NCBI GenBank assembly: GCA_017960985.1
Contig: JAGCYD010000021.1
Span: 1 to 44,647 of the forward strand
Reading direction: 5' to 3'
Length of the DNA stretch: 44,647 nt
From: Bacteroidaceae bacterium
GTDB lineage: Bacteria > Bacteroidota > Bacteroidia > Bacteroidales > Bacteroidaceae
In this document: piece by piece, positions 30,406 to 39,823 of the stretch
Layout: the number at the start of each line of letters is the position of its first letter
Position numbering within the stretch: position 1 is the stretch's first letter
Program-made: the position numbers and the translations under genes
The notes under the pieces: generated by a model
The model's database searches: none
What the model saw: the letters and a program-made list of their open reading frames with translations, nothing else
Told to the model about the DNA's origin: nothing

Positions 30406-31221
30406 TTACTTCACGGCATATTTAAGCCAAAGTTTCTTGAACGCCTGTTTGGTGTTCAGGGTAAAGTCGGATTGCATAAGCCATCCGTAATATCCACTAT
30501 CCTTAGGAAAGACATCCTTCACCTTTACGCCTTTGTATTTTCCGAAATTGATGACCTCATCACCGTTTTCGTCATAAACCAGACGCCCGGCGAAATCCAC
30601 GAAAGGGCGTCCTATAATGCTGGCAGAAGCTAAGGCGTCTATGCTATTCTCCAATTGCCGTTCTGGCTCCTCTTGACGACCTGGTGCATACATATCCAAT
30701 TGTCCTTGCAGAACACGCCAAGTGGCTTCTGTATCTTGGTCTGCAAGGTGTGCCTGGAAGTCGTCTTCCATCTTGCGTCCACAGTAGAATTTGTATGCAG
30801 CGGCAAGATTTCGCTTCTCCATAGCCTTAAAGATGTTGCAGGCATCGATTAATTTTGCTTGTGAAAAGTCAAAATTAACGCCAGCGCGAAGAAACTCTTC
30901 ACAAAGCAAGGGTACATCATAGCAATTGGAATTGTACCCGGCAAAGTCGCATCCCTGAAATTTTTCAGCTAACCGGGGAGCCAGTAGCTTAAATGTGGGC
31001 GCGTCTTTTACCATCTCGTCAGTGATGTGTGTAAGATTTTGCACCTCCTGTGGAATCGGCATTTCTGGATTGACGAAACGATTGGCACGTTCCTCGCTAC
31101 CATCGGGATGGGCTATGATGTAGGAAATCTGTATAATACGCGCCGTAGCAATATCCAATCCGGTTGTTTCCAGATCGAATATTACCAACGGGCGTTTAAG
31201 GTTTAATTTCATACTAATCAT
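30406..31221 (-). CDS. DnaQ-like 3'-5' exonuclease
   Basis: A 271-aa DEDD-family exonuclease. ExoI is VIFDLETTGLD (D16, E18), ExoII is FAGYNSNCYDVPLL, and ExoIII includes AHLADQDTEAT, where a His precedes the last Asp in the DEDDh manner. The C-terminal ~65 residues (INFGKYKGVKVKDVF ... YGWLMQSDF) form a small domain often attached to such exonucleases. It could be the proofreading subunit for the polymerase or a repair exonuclease. The first ATG (31221) overlaps the dnaN stop by 8 nt; an ATG at 31212 is an equally good start without overlap. Confidence 0.87.
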   Translation of the reverse strand: MISMKLNLKRPLVIFDLETTGLDIATARIIQISYIIAHPDGSEERANRFVNPEMPIPQEVQNLTHITDEMVKDAPTFKLLAPRLAEKFQGCDFAGYNSNCYDVPLLCEEFLRAGVNFDFSQAKLIDACNIFKAMEKRNLAAAYKFYCGRKMEDDFQAHLADQDTEATWRVLQGQLDMYAPGRQEEPERQLENSIDALASASIIGRPFVDFAGRLVYDENGDEVINFGKYKGVKVKDVFPKDSGYYGWLMQSDFTLNTKQAFKKLWLKYAVK

Positions 31222-32335
31222 TCAGCATCATAGGCATGAGAAGCATCAAGGTTTCCTCATCCTTGGGCTGTTCAGCAGGAATGACAACACCTGGACGACT
31301 GGGGTCTGCTAATTGTATGGTCAGAGCCTCGCCGTCGATGATATTGGCAATCTCAACTAGGAAAATACAACTAAAACCAATACTGATGGGATCGCTGGAA
31401 TAGTCGCAAAGTAGATTCTCTTCTGCGCGGGTGGCATAGTCATTATCCTCGCCAGTCAAGCACATCTGGTTGTTTTCCAAATGTAATTTCATCAATCCGC
31501 TGCTCTGATTACAGAACACGCTGATACGCTTAAGTGCACTGATAAGGCTTGCGCGATCCACTGTCGCTACATAGGGGTTGTTGGTGGGTATCACACCATT
31601 GTAGTTGGGATAACGGCCCTCGACTAGACGGAAATACAGGTCAAAGTCTTCAGCGTGGATATGTCCCTTTTCGTTATCAAAACTGATACCGATAGTAGTT
31701 TCCTTCTGTAGTACATTCTTCAGTATGGCAGCAACTTTCTTGGGTAAGATAAAACTGGTCTCGATACCAGGCTTCACACTTCTGTTGATATAGCGTACAA
31801 GTTTTTTTCCATCTGTTCCAGCAAAGGTAATGTCTTCTGCGTGAATATCCACATAAATACCTGTCATGACTACACGAATTTCATCGTTTCCAGTGGCAAA
31901 TAGACAGCGGTTGATACCAGTCAACAATACATCACTGGGAATTTCCAAAGTTGTTTTCTGCTCACCGATAGACTGTGGGGCAGGGTAGGTGGATGGGTCA
32001 AGTGTCATCACGGAGAATACACCCGTTTGGTGCTTTCCCTGCAATTCGTGCGATTCGGGATTGAACTCAAAGGTCAAGGGCTGCTCGGCTACTTCCTTCA
32101 TCGAGTCCATAATAGTCTTTGCGGCTATGCAGAACTGTGCGTTGTTGTCACTGTCCACCAAGGGCACGGATGTGATGAAATACTTCTCTCCGTCACTGGC
32201 AGTGATAGTTACTTTGCCGTTCTTGATGTCAAATAGGAAACAGTCAAGGATGGGCATTGAATTTTTTGCTGACATAACCTTGCTGGCAGCAGCGAGACGG
32301 CTATACAAAGCCGTGCTTGAAACAACGAATTTCAT
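31214..32335 (-). CDS. dnaN: DNA polymerase III beta subunit (sliding clamp)
   Basis: Forms the ring that tethers the replicative polymerase to DNA. The 373-aa protein shows the three-domain clamp sequence: MKFVVSSTALYSRLAAASKV, FAGTDGKKLVRY, FRLVEGRYPNYNGVIP, and the C-terminal LMLPMML that contributes to the partner-binding pocket. The start at 32335 is used because the upstream extension to 32410 would include the -7 element at 32368-32375. It heads the six-gene operon dnaN, exonuclease, coaBC, DUF4835, recN, tilS. dnaA is 6 kb away, not adjacent. Confidence 0.95.
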   Translation of the reverse strand: MKFVVSSTALYSRLAAASKVMSAKNSMPILDCFLFDIKNGKVTITASDGEKYFITSVPLVDSDNNAQFCIAAKTIMDSMKEVAEQPLTFEFNPESHELQGKHQTGVFSVMTLDPSTYPAPQSIGEQKTTLEIPSDVLLTGINRCLFATGNDEIRVVMTGIYVDIHAEDITFAGTDGKKLVRYINRSVKPGIETSFILPKKVAAILKNVLQKETTIGISFDNEKGHIHAEDFDLYFRLVEGRYPNYNGVIPTNNPYVATVDRASLISALKRISVFCNQSSGLMKLHLENNQMCLTGEDNDYATRAEENLLCDYSSDPISIGFSCIFLVEIANIIDGEALTIQLADPSRPGVVIPAEQPKDEETLMLLMPMMLND

Positions 32336-32367
32336 ACGATATATTAGTTTAGATGTTTTCCCAACAA

Positions 32368-32398
32368 CAAAAGTAAGGATAAATATTCGTAATACAAA
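32368..32398 (-). promoter_or_regulatory. Promoter of the dnaN operon
   Basis: On the minus strand, TTTG (32395-32398) and TACTTTTG (32368-32375) are 19 nt apart. The dnaN ATG follows 32 nt after the -7 element. Confidence 0.65.
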
Positions 32399-32437
32399 AA
32401 AAACGGGCAAAAATTAGGGCATGTTAATATAATATCG

Positions 32438-32481: not shown

Positions 32482-32877
32482 ATGGATATTACAGGAAAGA
32501 TTATTGCCGCATTGCCTGAGCGTAGTGGTGTGAGCCAGCGTAGCGGTAGCGAGTGGAAAGCGGCTTCGTATGTACTCGAGACACAGGAACAGTACCCAAA
32601 GAAGATATGCTTCGATGTGTTTGGGGCTGACCGTATAGAACAATTTAACATTCAAGTGGGCGATATGATGACGGTTTCGTTCGACATTGATGCTCATGAG
32701 TACAATGGACGTTGGTTCAACAGCATCCGTGCTTTCCGCGTCAATCGTGATGTACAGGCTGCGGCTCCTGCAGAAGTTCCTATGCCTGATGCTCCTGCTG
32801 CACCTTTCAATGCAGAACCTGCCCCTTCCTCTCCTTTTGAAGAGGCTCCTGCTGGTGACAGCGACCTTCCTTTTTGA
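32482..32877 (+). CDS. DUF3127 protein with an SSB-like acidic C-terminal tip
   Basis: A 131-aa protein. Residues 1-90 form a compact beta-rich domain (MDITGKIIAALPERSG, WKAASYVLETQEQYPKK, GRWFNSIRAFRV) that I recognise as DUF3127, an OB-fold-like Bacteroidetes family. Residues 91-122 are a flexible Ala/Pro linker. The chain ends GDSDLPF, very like the DDDIPF tip by which single-stranded-DNA-binding protein recruits repair and replication enzymes. The overall plan (OB-like core, Pro-rich linker, acidic-hydrophobic tip) is that of SSB. Single-strand binding is inference; the fold call is from memory. It is divergent from dnaN. Confidence 0.8.
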   Translation: MDITGKIIAALPERSGVSQRSGSEWKAASYVLETQEQYPKKICFDVFGADRIEQFNIQVGDMMTVSFDIDAHEYNGRWFNSIRAFRVNRDVQAAAPAEVPMPDAPAAPFNAEPAPSSPFEEAPAGDSDLPF

Positions 32878-32973: not shown

Positions 32974-33687
32974 TTACTCTTTTAAGAAATCTTCAGCAGC
33001 GGCAAGCGTATCGAGTTTTCCAACATCAATTAGCCGAAGTCCAGACTGTTGATAAGCATATATGGGATAGGCGTCACAGATGGAAAGGTAGAAATCTATG
33101 ACGGAGAAACGCTCGGGCCAACAGTCCATTAGGGGGAAAAGTGAGGTGGACATTTGATGGATGCCAGCAAAGGCAAGGTGCTGACAATCTTCTATATTCA
33201 AGTTGGGGTAGGGTGACTTCACCTCGCCAGTTTTGATGTTTGTCCATCCTACAAGTCTATTTCCTTTGTTGAAGAGTAAATATCGTTGGGTGTCTCGTTG
33301 GCTGACAAGCAGGGTGGCAGCTTGTCCTTTACCTGCCTCGTAAAATTCGCGCAGGTTCACATTACTTAGAATGTCCACATTGTGTATTAAGAATCGCTGA
33401 CAGTCAGCAAGCAGAGGTCGGGCATGCCGGATGCCTCCTCCAGTTTCGAGCAACTGCTCGCGTTCGTCACTTAGGTGGATGTTTTCTCGTCCCTTGCACC
33501 ATTGCTCTATTTGGTCAGCAAAATGATGAATATTGATGACGATATCTTCAAAACCTTCGTGTGTCAGTTTCTCCAACAGGATTTCGAGCAAAGGACGACC
33601 GCCTACGGGTACAAGTGCTTTTGGCATGGTGTCGGTCAGGGGTTTCAACCGAGTACCGAGTCCAGCGGCAAATATCATGGCTTTCAT
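32974..33687 (-). CDS. MurU-like sugar-1-phosphate nucleotidyltransferase
   Basis: A 237-aa nucleotidyltransferase. The signature MIFAAGLGTRLKPLTDTMPK (residues 4-23) is followed by ALVPVGGRPLLE, then ETGGGIRHARPLL, and HNVDIL where the metal-binding Asp sits. The size, and the sugar kinase gene overlapping it by 4 nt upstream, match the AmgK-MurU pair that turns free N-acetylmuramate into UDP-MurNAc, bypassing de novo synthesis. A mannose- or glucose-1-phosphate substrate is possible from sequence alone. It is the last gene of the operon. Confidence 0.82.
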   Translation of the reverse strand: MKAMIFAAGLGTRLKPLTDTMPKALVPVGGRPLLEILLEKLTHEGFEDIVINIHHFADQIEQWCKGRENIHLSDEREQLLETGGGIRHARPLLADCQRFLIHNVDILSNVNLREFYEAGKGQAATLLVSQRDTQRYLLFNKGNRLVGWTNIKTGEVKSPYPNLNIEDCQHLAFAGIHQMSTSLFPLMDCWPERFSVIDFYLSICDAYPIYAYQQSGLRLIDVGKLDTLAAAEDFLKE

Positions 33688-35123
33688 GCGAATCTCTGGT
33701 GGATATTCTGCTCTCGATGGCAGAGTTCAACTTGAATATCGTACTTTTGGTGCAGATGCTCGGCAAGATGTTGTGCGCAATATACACTGCGATGCTGTCC
33801 GCCCGTACAGCCAAACGAGAACATAAGGTCCGTGAAGCCTCGCTCGATATACCTCTCGACATGAGCTTCTGCCAGACGATAAACACTTTCAAGGAAAGTG
33901 AGAATCTCGCCGTCATCTTCCAGAAAATGAATGACGGGCTCATCCAATCCAGTCATCTGCTTGTATGCTTCATATCGTCCAGGGTTATGTGTAGAACGGC
34001 AGTCAAAGACATATCCGCCACCATTCCCACTTTCATCCTCAGGGATGCCTCGCTTGAAACTGAAACTGAAGATCCTAACCTTTAGTGGAGCATGTTGCAG
34101 ATGCTTTTCTTTTTCTATGTTGTCCTTAAAATTATCAACGATATCCGTAAGGACTTGCCTTAGGTATGAATAGGGACATCCATTGCTGGCTAACAATTTA
34201 CGGAGATTGTCAATGGCGGGTGGGATGCTTTGTAGAAAATGATTTTTGCGTTCGAAATATCCGCGGAATCCGTATGCCCCAAGCACCTGAAGTAGGCGGA
34301 ACAACACAAATAGTGAAAGCCGTTGGCGGAATAAGGCTTCATCCACCTTGATATATTTTCGCAAGGAGTTCAGATATATTTGAATGAGTTCCTCTCGCAG
34401 CGAATCGGGATACTTTGCTGAAGCTTGCCATAAAAACGAGGCTACATCATATTGCACAGCCCCTTTTCTTCCTCCTTGAAAGTCGATGAACCAGGGATTT
34501 CCTTCCTTGTCTAGCATCACATTGCGTGCCTGAAAGTCACGATACAGGAATGCCTGCTCATTGTCAGAAGTCAGATCAGTCGCCATTTGCTGAAAGTCCT
34601 CCTCTAAACGCATTTCATGGAAGTCCACTCCTGTAGCTTTTAGAAAGCAGTATTTGAAATAGTTAAGGTCGAAAAGTACATTCGTGCGGTCCATTTCGGC
34701 CTGAGGATAACATTGGGTGAAGTCGAGGCCCTTTGCTCCGCAAATTTGGATATCAGGCAGAAGGGAAATGGTTCGGCGTAAAAGTTCTTTTTCCTTCTCG
34801 GAATAGTTACCACCTGCCTTTCGCCCTATTTCTAAGGCATCGAATAACGAAGTGGTGCCCAAATCTGTTAGAATGTATCGTGATTCATCTTCACTTGCAA
34901 TCAATACTGTTGGTACAGGAATCTTTTGTGCCGCAAAATGTTTCGCTAAATAGATAAAAGCATGGTTTTCCTCTTTAGAGGTACCGACTACACAAATCAA
35001 ACTTTCCCCCTCGTCATTATAAAGGCGGAAATATTGTCGATTGCTGCCACTGCCCTTGATGGGTTCACATCGTGTAGCATCTTTTCCCGTTAGTTGCCTG
35101 TAAAGTTGCTTCAGCCCGTCCAT
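33684..35123 (-). CDS. AmgK-like amino-sugar kinase fused to the RapZ C-terminal domain
   Basis: A 479-aa two-domain protein. Residues ~1-340 are an aminoglycoside-phosphotransferase-fold kinase: GSGSNRQYFRL loop (24-34), catalytic loop YRDFQARN with D196 and N201, and metal-binding D214 in FIDFQGG. This is the pattern of AmgK, the N-acetylmuramate/N-acetylglucosamine anomeric kinase. Residues ~348-479 match the C-terminal half of RapZ: FSFSFKRGIPED, YVFDCRSTHNPG, MTGLDEPV, FGCTGGQHRSV and the CHRE near the end. In E. coli that half binds glucosamine 6-phosphate. The RapZ P-loop half is missing, replaced by the kinase. The 4-nt overlap with the MurU-like gene supports joint action. Function in sensing is inference. 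Confidence 0.85.
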   Translation of the reverse strand: MDGLKQLYRQLTGKDATRCEPIKGSGSNRQYFRLYNDEGESLICVVGTSKEENHAFIYLAKHFAAQKIPVPTVLIASEDESRYILTDLGTTSLFDALEIGRKAGGNYSEKEKELLRRTISLLPDIQICGAKGLDFTQCYPQAEMDRTNVLFDLNYFKYCFLKATGVDFHEMRLEEDFQQMATDLTSDNEQAFLYRDFQARNVMLDKEGNPWFIDFQGGRKGAVQYDVASFLWQASAKYPDSLREELIQIYLNSLRKYIKVDEALFRQRLSLFVLFRLLQVLGAYGFRGYFERKNHFLQSIPPAIDNLRKLLASNGCPYSYLRQVLTDIVDNFKDNIEKEKHLQHAPLKVRIFSFSFKRGIPEDESGNGGGYVFDCRSTHNPGRYEAYKQMTGLDEPVIHFLEDDGEILTFLESVYRLAEAHVERYIERGFTDLMFSFGCTGGQHRSVYCAQHLAEHLHQKYDIQVELCHREQNIHQRFA

Positions 35124-35144: not shown

Positions 35145-36671
35145 TTATTCCCACTCAATGGTTGCTGGTGGCTTGGAGGAAATGTCGTAACAAACGCGGT
35201 TAACTCCTTTTACCTTATTGATGATGTCGTTCGATACTTTGGCCATGAACTCATAGGGAAGATGCGCCCAATCGGCCGTCATGGCATCACTACTGGTGAC
35301 AGCTCGTAGCGCAATAGGATTCTCGTAGGTGCGTTCATCGCCCATCACGCCAACGCTGCGGACATCGGAAAGTAGTATGGCACCAGCCTGCCATACTTGG
35401 TCATAAAGTCCCCAGTCACGCAGACCTTGTATGAAAATGTCGTCGGCATCCTGAAGTACACGCACTTTCTCTGGTGTGATTGCACCGAGTATTCTCACGG
35501 CAAGTCCTGGACCAGGGAAGGGGTGGCGTGTGATAAGATGCTCTGGCATACCTAACTGCCTACCCACACGGCGAACTTCGTCCTTGAATAACCAGCGCAA
35601 TGGCTCGCAAAGGCTGAGGTGCATTTCCTCGGGTAGACCACCCACATTGTGGTGGCTTTTGATAACCTTACCTGTAATATTCAAGCTCTCAATACGGTCT
35701 GGATAGATAGTACCTTGGGCAAGCCAGCGCGCATCGGTAATTTTCCGTGCTTCAGCATCGAAAACTTCAATAAAGTCCCTGCCGATAATCTTACGCTTCT
35801 TCTCAGGCTCACTTACCCCTTCAAGGTCGGCAAAGAACTTGGCGGAAGCATCAACACCGATAACATTCAGCCCAAGACATTCGTAGTCGCGCATAACATT
35901 CTGAAATTCGTTTTTGCGTAACATACCATGATCCACGAATATACAGGTGAGTTGATGCCCAATGGCGCGGTTGAGCAAAACGGCTGCCACACTGCTGTCC
36001 ACACCGCCAGAGAGTCCAAGTATAACACGGTCAGAACCTATCTGCTGACGAAGTTCGGCTACTGTGGTTTCCACAAAGTTGGCAGGACTCCAATCCTGAT
36101 GCCCTCCACAAATGTCCACCACAAAGTTCTTCAGGAGCAATGTACCCTGTAGCGTATGGAACACTTCAGGATGGAATTGCACACCGAACATCTGGCCATT
36201 ATCTGCCTGGTAGGCTGCAAAACGGACATCGTCGGTGGACGCTATGGCATGATAGCCTTCAGGTAGGGCGGTGATGGTGTCACCATGACTCATCCATACT
36301 TGACTATTTGCTTCAAATCCTTTAAACAAAGGACTGGTGGCATCAATCGTCGTCAAGTTTGCACGGCCATACTCGCGACTACCTGCTGGCTCAACTTTTC
36401 CACCGAGTGTGTGGCTGATAAATTGTGCTCCGTAGCAAATGCCTAACACGGGAATCTTTCCCATAAACTGTGTTAAGTCCACTTTGAAAGCCTCGGGGTC
36501 ATAAACACTATAGGGCGAACCGGCAAGAATGACACCGATAACACTCTCGTCGCCTATGGGAAATTTGTTGTAGGGTAGAATCTCGCAGAAGGTATCCAGT
36601 TCGCGCAACCTGCGTGCAATAAGTTGCGTGGTTTGTGAACCGAAGTCGAGAATAATAATTTTTTCCTGCAT
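35145..36671 (-). CDS. guaA: GMP synthase (glutamine-hydrolysing)
   Basis: Converts XMP to GMP using glutamine and ATP. The N-terminal class I amidotransferase has the nucleophile Cys in GICYGAQF and the His/Glu pair in FGVQFHPEV. The central ATP-pyrophosphatase shows [10 protein letters not shown]. The C-terminal dimerisation domain ends [15 protein letters not shown], the canonical GuaA end. The 508-aa length is normal. It lies 12 nt after folB and 21 nt before the kinase-RapZ gene in one operon. No guanine riboswitch-like structure is evident upstream. Confidence 0.97.
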
Positions 36672-38407: not shown

Positions 38408-39823
38408 TTATTTTCTCCGTTTCAGGGCGGTTTCCAGTTCGGTTATATGGCGGGCAAATTCCTTATCCGTTGAAATACGGTCACGAATTTGTCCGATGGC
38501 ATGGAGTACAGTGGCATGGTTGCGACCTCCAATAAGTAATCCTATGCGACTGGCAGTCATTTTAGTGTGCTTTTGTGCCAGATACATGGCTGTCTGTCGT
38601 ACTGTGACTATATTGGCCTTCCTGCTTTTAGAGAAGACTTCTTCTTGAGTTACCCCCCAGTGTAGGCAGGCTTCCTCAATGATGCGTTCAATCGTAATGG
38701 GAGTTGCTTGGAACTTAATGGCTCGTTTTACGATTTGTTCTGCCATCAAAAGGTCTATATCGCGACTATAAACCACAGACGAGGCCATGAGCGAATTTAC
38801 GATACCCTCTAAGTCGCGGATGCTGTTGTTTACATTAGTCGCAATGTATTCTACAACATCTTCTGGTATAGAGAGCCCGTCGTGGCGTATCTTGTTTTCC
38901 AGTATCTTACGGCAAAGTTCCTGATTGGGACGCTCGAGTTCTGCCATCAGTCCCCATTTGAAGCGTGTCAACAGACGCTCTTCCATGCCTTTCATCGAGG
39001 CAGGGTCGCGGTCACTGGTCAAGATAATCTGCTTGCCATTCATCTTCAAGTGGTTAAATATGTGAAAGAAGGCAAGTTGAGTCTTTTCCTGCCCAGCCAA
39101 TTCCTGTATGTCATCGACAATCAGCGTGTCAATAGTCTGATAGAAATTGATGAAATCATTAAAACTATTGTTGCGAATACTATCGGTGTATTGCACGGTA
39201 AATTGATGCGCTCCTACATATAGAACACGCATCTTAGGGTGCAACTCTTTTAGTTTAGTGCCAATGGCATTGACAAGATGTGTCTTGCCCACACCAGATG
39301 CTCCGAAGATAAATAAGGGGTTGAATGTCGTTTGCTTGGGATTCTCCGCAATGGCCTGACCAATAGAACGGGGGAGTTTGTTGCTTTCTCCTTCGATGAA
39401 GTTCTCAAAACGATATTCAGCATTCAGATTTGAATCGAGTTCTGCAGGCTGTATCTTACTGCGGCCAGTAGGAAGGAAAACGCCGTCCTTACTCAATCGC
39501 TGTGACTCTACGGCTGTTGGGGTTGTATCGACATCAGTTGCAATGTTATTGGTACTATCAGTCAGAATTCGATACATGATGTGGATGTCCTTACCAAAGG
39601 TTTTCCATACCACACTATACATCAATTTCTTGAATTGTCCATCGAGAATCTCAAAGAAGTAATTTGATGGCACGCTCAGCAGCAACTCTTTTTGCTCACG
39701 GTTGAATGAAACAAACTGGATAGGCATGAACCATGTACGGTAGTCCTGCTTATTTACAACATTGACCTCGATGATCTCGAGGCAACGCTTCCATTGCTTC
39801 ATTCCTGCTGTTTCGGTCGCCAT
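38408..39823 (-). CDS. dnaA: Chromosomal replication initiator DnaA
   Basis: Binds DnaA boxes and opens the origin. Four-domain layout in 471 aa: N-terminal helicase-interaction domain (MKQWKRCLEIIEVNV), a variable linker (~90-140), the AAA+ domain with Walker A GASGVGKTHL, Walker B TLIVDDIQ and sensor TSDRDPASMKGM, and the C-terminal DNA-binding domain with the signature IGLLIGGRNHATVLHAIGQI. It is the last gene of an amidase-mlaD-dnaA run, 8 nt after mlaD. No DnaA-box cluster or AT-rich unwinding region lies beside it, so oriC is probably elsewhere. Confidence 0.96.
   Translation of the reverse strand: MATETAGMKQWKRCLEIIEVNVVNKQDYRTWFMPIQFVSFNREQKELLLSVPSNYFFEILDGQFKKLMYSVVWKTFGKDIHIMYRILTDSTNNIATDVDTTPTAVESQRLSKDGVFLPTGRSKIQPAELDSNLNAEYRFENFIEGESNKLPRSIGQAIAENPKQTTFNPLFIFGASGVGKTHLVNAIGTKLKELHPKMRVLYVGAHQFTVQYTDSIRNNSFNDFINFYQTIDTLIVDDIQELAGQEKTQLAFFHIFNHLKMNGKQIILTSDRDPASMKGMEERLLTRFKWGLMAELERPNQELCRKILENKIRHDGLSIPEDVVEYIATNVNNSIRDLEGIVNSLMASSVVYSRDIDLLMAEQIVKRAIKFQATPITIERIIEEACLHWGVTQEEVFSKSRKANIVTVRQTAMYLAQKHTKMTASRIGLLIGGRNHATVLHAIGQIRDRISTDKEFARHITELETALKRRK

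Follow-up and report, generated by a model that had tools for sequence, protein, structure and literature searches.

Introduction

AmgK is described as an anomeric kinase of N-acetylmuramate (MurNAc) and N-acetylglucosamine (GlcNAc) (PMC7670621). MurNAc-6-phosphate is made by AnmK and cleaved by MurQ; the AmgK-MurU route needs it dephosphorylated, a step reported for MupP in Pseudomonas, which was discovered through a search for genes that go with amgK in the absence of murQ (PMC5371407). RapZ of Escherichia coli and its homologue YvcJ of Bacillus subtilis share a C-terminal domain (RapZ_C), in which the reported anion pocket of the E. coli protein is formed by H190, T248, G249, H252 and R253 (PMC5737377). 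Here we analyse a 44,647-nt stretch of DNA from a Bacteroidaceae bacterium (the window; contig JAGCYD010000021.1, assembly GCA_017960985.1, genome 83.8% complete), in which a single 479-aa frame with an ATG start (33684-35123, minus strand, as are all features of the gene pair given below) joins an AmgK-like kinase to RapZ_C and precedes a MurU-like gene. We find RapZ_C in 66 of the 68 sampled genomes that have AnmK and lack MurQ, and we propose, tentatively and with slightly less than an even chance of being right, that the fused RapZ_C frees MurNAc from MurNAc-6-phosphate, the step that MupP performs elsewhere.

The RapZ_C part of the frame spans residues 347-472 (33708-34085), with the same span returned by our genome search, and matches PF22740 with E = 3.2e-33 (114.9 bits against a cut-off of 27); E. 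coli RapZ itself matches residues 350-460 (E = 1.1e-14, phmmer against the PDB). Unlike RapZ and YvcJ, the protein has no P-loop half (PF03668 was not found in it by Pfam search) and carries the kinase instead, and as a whole it scores 100.5 bits against the NCBIfam RapZ equivalog, for which the cut-off is 244. An overlapping MurU-like gene follows the kinase as in the AmgK-MurU pairs of Pseudomonas and Tannerella forsythia, but the canonical AmgK models (324 and 360 positions) contain no RapZ_C and the window protein falls far below their cut-offs. The step proposed here for RapZ_C is that of MupP in the same pathway, although MupP belongs to the unrelated HAD family; the two also resemble each other in profile, RapZ_C occurring with an AmgK-type kinase where MurQ is absent. 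Our literature search found no published description of the kinase-RapZ_C architecture.

RapZ_C accompanies AnmK in genomes that lack MurQ

We searched 198 genomes of the phylum and 99 of the order (one per genus, with a single genome from each family other than that of the window), the window genome being counted in both. MurQ was scored as present where its best match had E < 1e-40, which held for 140/198 and 20/99 genomes (134 and 15 at the curated cut-off); the best values in the remaining genomes were 5.5e-12 or weaker.

In the phylum sample, seven genomes from five families were positive for AnmK and negative for MurQ, and all seven had both the kinase and RapZ_C. The same state was found in 61 of the 99 order genomes, 59 of which had RapZ_C, and the two exceptions (G273 and G294) are fragmented assemblies. 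Conversely, none of the 119 phylum genomes with AnmK and no RapZ_C was MurQ-negative. AnmK without MurQ occurred in 0/131 phylum genomes that had neither the kinase nor RapZ_C and in 0/43 that had the kinase alone, 42 of these 43 being members of one family whose AnmK absence amounts to about one event. Fisher tests that ignore relatedness gave p = 8e-8 for the phylum and 5e-5 for the order; restricted to the AnmK genomes of the order, the comparison is 59/61 against 5/7 (p = 0.05). AnmK alone was rejected as a predictor, being present in 16/24 genomes with RapZ_C and 119/174 of the others; the signal appeared only once MurQ was added.

An invariant cysteine loop in the RapZ_C domain

Residue conservation was counted over 101 distinct Bacteroidota domains. 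Ten RapZ_C proteins from other groups, canonical or stand-alone, were kept apart; they comprise RapZ and YvcJ types, two proteins of Streptomyces plasmids and two of phages. One row (L025) of a separate 67-row RapZ_C alignment was not counted, and L072 and L076, cut by contig ends, gave no domain row. In E. coli numbering, C247, T248, G249, G250, H252, R253 and S254 are each present in 101/101 Bacteroidota domains, as are D182, R184, N188, P189, G200 and H276. The loop residues C, G, G, H, R and S are also found in 10/10 of the proteins from other sources, and T248 in 7/10. In the window this loop is CTGGQHRS (residues 439-446, 33786-33809), a C-x5-R-S sequence corresponding to the anion pocket of E. 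coli RapZ.

C-x5-R-[ST] is the loop pattern of cysteine phosphatases. The fusion shares it with the cysteine-dependent protein tyrosine phosphatases while showing no detectable sequence relationship to them, and its loop is the only C..G..R[ST] among the 35 window open reading frames of at least 150 aa; by chance, the motif with Gly would be expected about 0.003 times in a protein of this size. Two Asp residues, D182 (101/101) and D202 (97/101), are candidate general acids on the alignment. The same Cys-x5-Arg-Ser loop occurs in E. coli RapZ, where it is reported to bind sulfate or malonate. Its likeness to cysteine-phosphatase loops and a possible hydrolysis of glucosamine-6-phosphate (GlcN6P) are already in print (PMC7199280); the fold of the domain has been reported as phosphofructokinase-like (PMC5737377). 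C247A and C247S are both reported to abolish E. coli RapZ activity, a catalytic thiol has been suggested, and the crystal with GlcN6P is described as probably holding a transformed product (PMC9841335). For the RapZ homologue YvcJ, too, a phosphatase activity has been reported (PMC7525490). With an invariant Cys beside the pocket, catalysis is at least as likely as sensing.

These results, namely a loop kept in 101/101 domains and the profile of AnmK without MurQ, support a reading of RapZ_C as a phosphatase. The fusion and MurU would then form the Bacteroidota version of the anabolic MurNAc salvage route. RapZ_C would act as a cysteine-dependent sugar-6-phosphate phosphatase, in which loop amides, His and Arg hold the 6-phosphate and the invariant Cys of the C-x5-R-S loop attacks it. 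MurNAc released from MurNAc-6-phosphate would be supplied to the adjoining kinase, which would make MurNAc-1-phosphate (and probably GlcNAc-1-phosphate too) for conversion by MurU to UDP-MurNAc, so that RapZ_C would fill the role of MupP in Pseudomonas. The chemistry, the substrate and any channelling between the two parts of the protein are what we infer.

Domains fused to enzymes are often regulators, and the first-pass annotation of this DNA had suggested that the kinase is gated by an amino-sugar phosphate. According to this explanation, binding of an amino-sugar 6-phosphate, for instance GlcN6P, to RapZ_C would switch the kinase without any catalysis and match salvage to de novo supply. 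The E. coli C-terminal domain alone is reported to bind GlcN6P by surface plasmon resonance (PMC7073468), and the E. coli pocket is conserved at four of its five positions, T248, G249, H252 and R253, in 101/101 domains. The fifth, H190, is not: it is Gly in 98/101, the window included. There, Gly and Arg of NPGR (residues 380-383, 33975-33986) stand at the positions of His190 and Trp191, the latter being Arg or Lys in 98/101. A GNGGG insert lies beside it (residues 366-370, 34014-34028), present in 78/101 Bacteroidota rows, with mostly close variants in the remainder, and absent from 10/10 proteins of other sources. Position 190 varies among the latter as well (H in four, Y in three, F in three). 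A pure sensor would also have no need of the invariant Cys; C247S reportedly inactivates E. coli RapZ even though Ser preserves the size of the side chain. Furthermore, RapZ_C is a separate gene in 8/101 rows, and on a different contig from the kinase in genome G180, where tethered gating is impossible. We therefore regard a sensing role as unlikely, though worth keeping in view.

The earlier idea that the protein works without the E. coli RNAs fared better. The basic RNA-binding tail (K270, K281-K283) is not conserved across the 101 rows (GlmY and GlmZ were not searched for), and action through E. coli-type RNAs appears unlikely from these sequences; YvcJ is likewise reported to have no conserved basic tail (PMC7525490).

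The kinase and its MurU-like partner

The four motifs from which the first-pass annotation had recognised an AmgK-type kinase joined to the C-terminal half of RapZ (YRDFQARN, FIDFQGG, FGCTGGQHRSV and MTGLDEPV) all lie in the frame, and profile searches bore out its assignment, the C-terminal residues matching RapZ_C as above and the N-terminal ones Pfam APH (residues 19-253, E = 1.9e-15). The AmgK-like domain extends over residues 19-312 (34188-35069). Its best NCBIfam match is AmgK NF045759 (residues 27-310, E = 1.7e-18), at 66.9 bits against an equivalog cut-off of 550, and a second AmgK model gives 22.6 bits against 500; an aminoglycoside phosphotransferase, PDB 3csv, matches residues 20-309 (phmmer against the PDB). 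Across 42 aligned relatives the catalytic residues D196, N201 and D214 are invariant. Within the catalytic loop YRDFQARN (residues 194-201, 34521-34544), R195, Q198 and R200 are invariant too and Y194 is kept in at least 90%, and within the metal-binding DFQGG (residues 214-218, 34470-34484) so are Q216, G217 and G218. A variable linker, residues 313-346 (34086-34187), separates the kinase from RapZ_C.

The stop codon of the fusion and the start of the MurU-like gene share an ATGA at 33684-33687, read directly from the sequence, which is the 4-nt overlap noted earlier. The MurU-like gene (32974-33687) encodes a 237-aa nucleotidyltransferase whose best NCBIfam match is MurU NF045761 (E = 1.6e-33; 116.4 bits against an equivalog cut-off of 250), alongside Pfam NTP_transferase (E = 6.1e-14).

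Each of the two T. forsythia genomes searched holds one relative, the fusion, about 60% identical to that of the window. T. forsythia AmgK and MurU expressed in E. coli are reported as the positive control for labelling with a MurNAc probe (PMC13041923), and the AmgK used there would be the fused locus. As the sole relative in both T. forsythia genomes is the fusion and its AmgK and MurU work in E. coli, MurNAc salvage is the likely role of the gene pair.

The pair has dnaN and guaA on either side and dnaA nearby (window positions 31214-32410, 35145-36671 and 38408-39823), and a replication origin is probably near. A gene for a DUF3127 protein (E = 3.1e-32) stands on the opposite, plus strand between dnaN and MurU (32482-32877).

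Distribution and variants of the architecture

The fusion protein has a single match in its own genome, itself. Among 45 relatives in named genomes, from genera including Prevotella, Phocaeicola and Petrimonas and from T. forsythia ATCC 43037, 41 are single-frame fusions, two include MurU in the frame and two are cut by contig ends; with 41/45 sharing the same single frame, we rejected a chance reading frame or an assembly join. The window fusion is a typical member of a widespread architecture. RapZ_C exceeded its cut-off in 24/198 phylum genomes, fused in 20 (window included), next to separate genes for kinase and MurU in three, and on a different contig from the kinase in one (G180). In the order it was found in 84/99 genomes, in a frame of at least 398 aa in 79 and with a separate kinase gene within 226 nt in the other five. 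For 30 of the 79 long frames the fusion was seen in the sequence (28 loci of L123-L152, the window, and L153 of genome G200), and for the others it is taken from frame length.

The RapZ P-loop half exceeded its cut-off in 0/198 phylum genomes, the one 32-residue match, in G130, being below threshold. This upholds the earlier view that a kinase replaces it and led us to reject a full-length RapZ elsewhere in these genomes. A neighbouring MurU was not a constant feature: one on the same strand lay within 600 nt at 17/22, 21/43 and 16/30 loci in three sets whose flanks are short, the 43 including two triple fusions that are not among the 21. When ten flanking genes were scanned in T. forsythia, Phocaeicola and Petrimonas, no shared neighbourhood beyond MurU was found. 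In Bacteroides finegoldii the protein (WP_237923178.1) bears the RefSeq name "RNase adapter RapZ" and is followed by a "nucleotidyltransferase family protein".

Kinase, RapZ_C and MurU form one frame in two Bacteroidaceae metagenome-assembled genomes, from sheep rumen and goat reticulum (L038, 3896-6271, and L049, 4001-6271; 791 and 756 aa, the domains being checked for L038). Such frames would suit a RapZ_C that serves in oligomerisation or in docking MurU, or that binds RNA, with no catalytic part. The E. coli domain is reported to self-associate through a YVFD strand (PMC5737377) that is largely kept in Bacteroidota RapZ_C. Docking, however, has no need of an invariant anion pocket with a Cys, and an RNA binder is poorly matched by the unconserved tail; moreover, only the fused copy exists in each of the two T. 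forsythia genomes, which give no view of the kinase half without RapZ_C. We give a purely structural or RNA-binding role little credence.

Several further arrangements were seen. In genome G200, a 736-aa frame (L153, 2573-4783, minus strand) places a B3/4 domain ahead of kinase and RapZ_C, with a MurU-like gene next to it. The G180 protein (L102, 7935-8336, minus strand) is a stand-alone RapZ_C of 133 aa adjoined by neither kinase nor MurU; the kinase on the other contig is 31% identical, and the genome has AnmK and no strong MurQ. In family f17 of the phylum sample (L027-L031 fetched), 42 genomes have a distant AmgK-like kinase and no RapZ_C, AnmK or strong MurQ, and among the five fetched, four show a 4-nt overlap between this kinase gene and a MurU-like one, which lies adjacent in the fifth. 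Outside the phylum, two Streptomyces plasmid proteins named RNase adapter RapZ (L117, 1504-2385, and L118, 1501-1986) have RapZ_C without the P-loop half, one fused to Nudix and one alone. A 109-aa RapZ_C that stands alone and has the Cys-Arg loop is encoded by Rhizobium phage RHph_TM16, close to a gene resembling sugar epimerases (L120, 1498-1827), and Microcystis phage MaAM05 carries a YvcJ-like gene adjoining an annotated gluconeogenesis factor, an arrangement as in bacteria (L119, 1018-1977).

Descent of the fusion

A quick tree built from 108 kinases shows fusion as the background condition in the main Bacteroidota clade. Six changes are needed to account for the split genes, at least four of which well-supported branches make unavoidable, and one change for the triple fusion. 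This indicates that splitting has recurred; RapZ_C stayed beside the kinase after the splits. In 41 relatives, median identity to the window is 78.6% for RapZ_C, 62.3% for the kinase and 21.9% for the linker, and in 41/41 RapZ_C is closer to that of the window than the kinase is. Its retention next to the kinase and its stronger conservation both speak for the phosphatase reading.

Discussion

A number of observations weigh against a MurNAc-6-phosphate phosphatase. A co-occurrence profile tells the pathway of an operon and not which domain does the chemistry, and the profile itself has gaps: the window genome has neither AnmK nor a strong MurQ (at 83.8% completeness), its family mate G250 has MurQ and no AnmK, both genes are missing from 7/24 phylum and 12/84 order genomes with RapZ_C, and MurQ is present in 10/24 and 13/84 of them. 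One result points the other way: a MupP model exceeded its cut-off in 0/99 order genomes. Its best score, 107.6 bits, does not surpass the 108.9 of E. coli phosphoglycolate phosphatase, and at E = 1e-3 it had no match in 18 of the 59 genomes with AnmK and RapZ_C and without MurQ; the model also misses our control Caulobacter, which is said to have MupP (PMC11980594), so this silence is weak. Against the reading, the Petrimonas locus has a HAD gene two genes upstream; the window protein matched no HAD family (Pfam and NCBIfam to E = 1). Nor did sequence place RapZ_C in any phosphatase family (Pfam and NCBIfam to E = 1), and in a PDB profile search to E = 10 only RapZ rose above chance.

The experimental literature adds to these objections. 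The phosphatase activity reported for YvcJ (PMC7525490) could reside in its other half. E. coli is reported to accumulate MurNAc-6-phosphate once murQ is lost (PMC5371407), and since its genome holds RapZ, E. coli RapZ at least does not do the job of a MurNAc-6-phosphate phosphatase; the insert and the Gly found at position 190 are where the fused form differs from it. AnmK is said to be absent from T. forsythia, whose growth on little MurNAc is reported to benefit from loss of murK (PMC7670621); a strong MurNAc-6-phosphate phosphatase would make that loss less useful.

A phosphatase whose substrate is a different sugar phosphate, such as GlcN6P or GlcNAc-6-phosphate, would suit the genomes without AnmK, that of the window among them; it would feed GlcNAc to the kinase or drain GlcN6P. 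The probably transformed GlcN6P in the E. coli RapZ crystal and the GlcNAc activity described for AmgK are consistent with this. Such a substrate would leave the association of RapZ_C with AnmK-without-MurQ in 66/68 genomes unexplained, and we think it rather improbable.

Release of MurNAc from MurNAc-6-phosphate thus remains our preferred reading. That association is what is new here, the phosphatase-loop likeness of E. coli RapZ having been published before. RapZ_C occurs in this setting in most sampled genera of the order, to which dominant human gut bacteria belong, and RefSeq names one copy or more as an RNA adaptor despite the absence of a RapZ P-loop half and of a conserved RNA tail. 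Should RapZ_C prove to be a phosphatase, it would fill a gap in cell-wall recycling where MurNAc-6-phosphate is made and no etherase is present. It is possible, though more doubtful, that the fused domain represents a class of cysteine sugar phosphatase that is new, lies outside the HAD family and replaces MupP. On that view, the same chemistry, repurposed or slowed, would underlie metabolite sensing by E. coli RapZ, and for the E. coli protein this much has been suggested already (PMC7199280). Were RapZ_C a phosphatase, the Bacteroidota protein would also provide a homologue with an entirely metabolic role for testing the hydrolysis suspected of E. coli RapZ.

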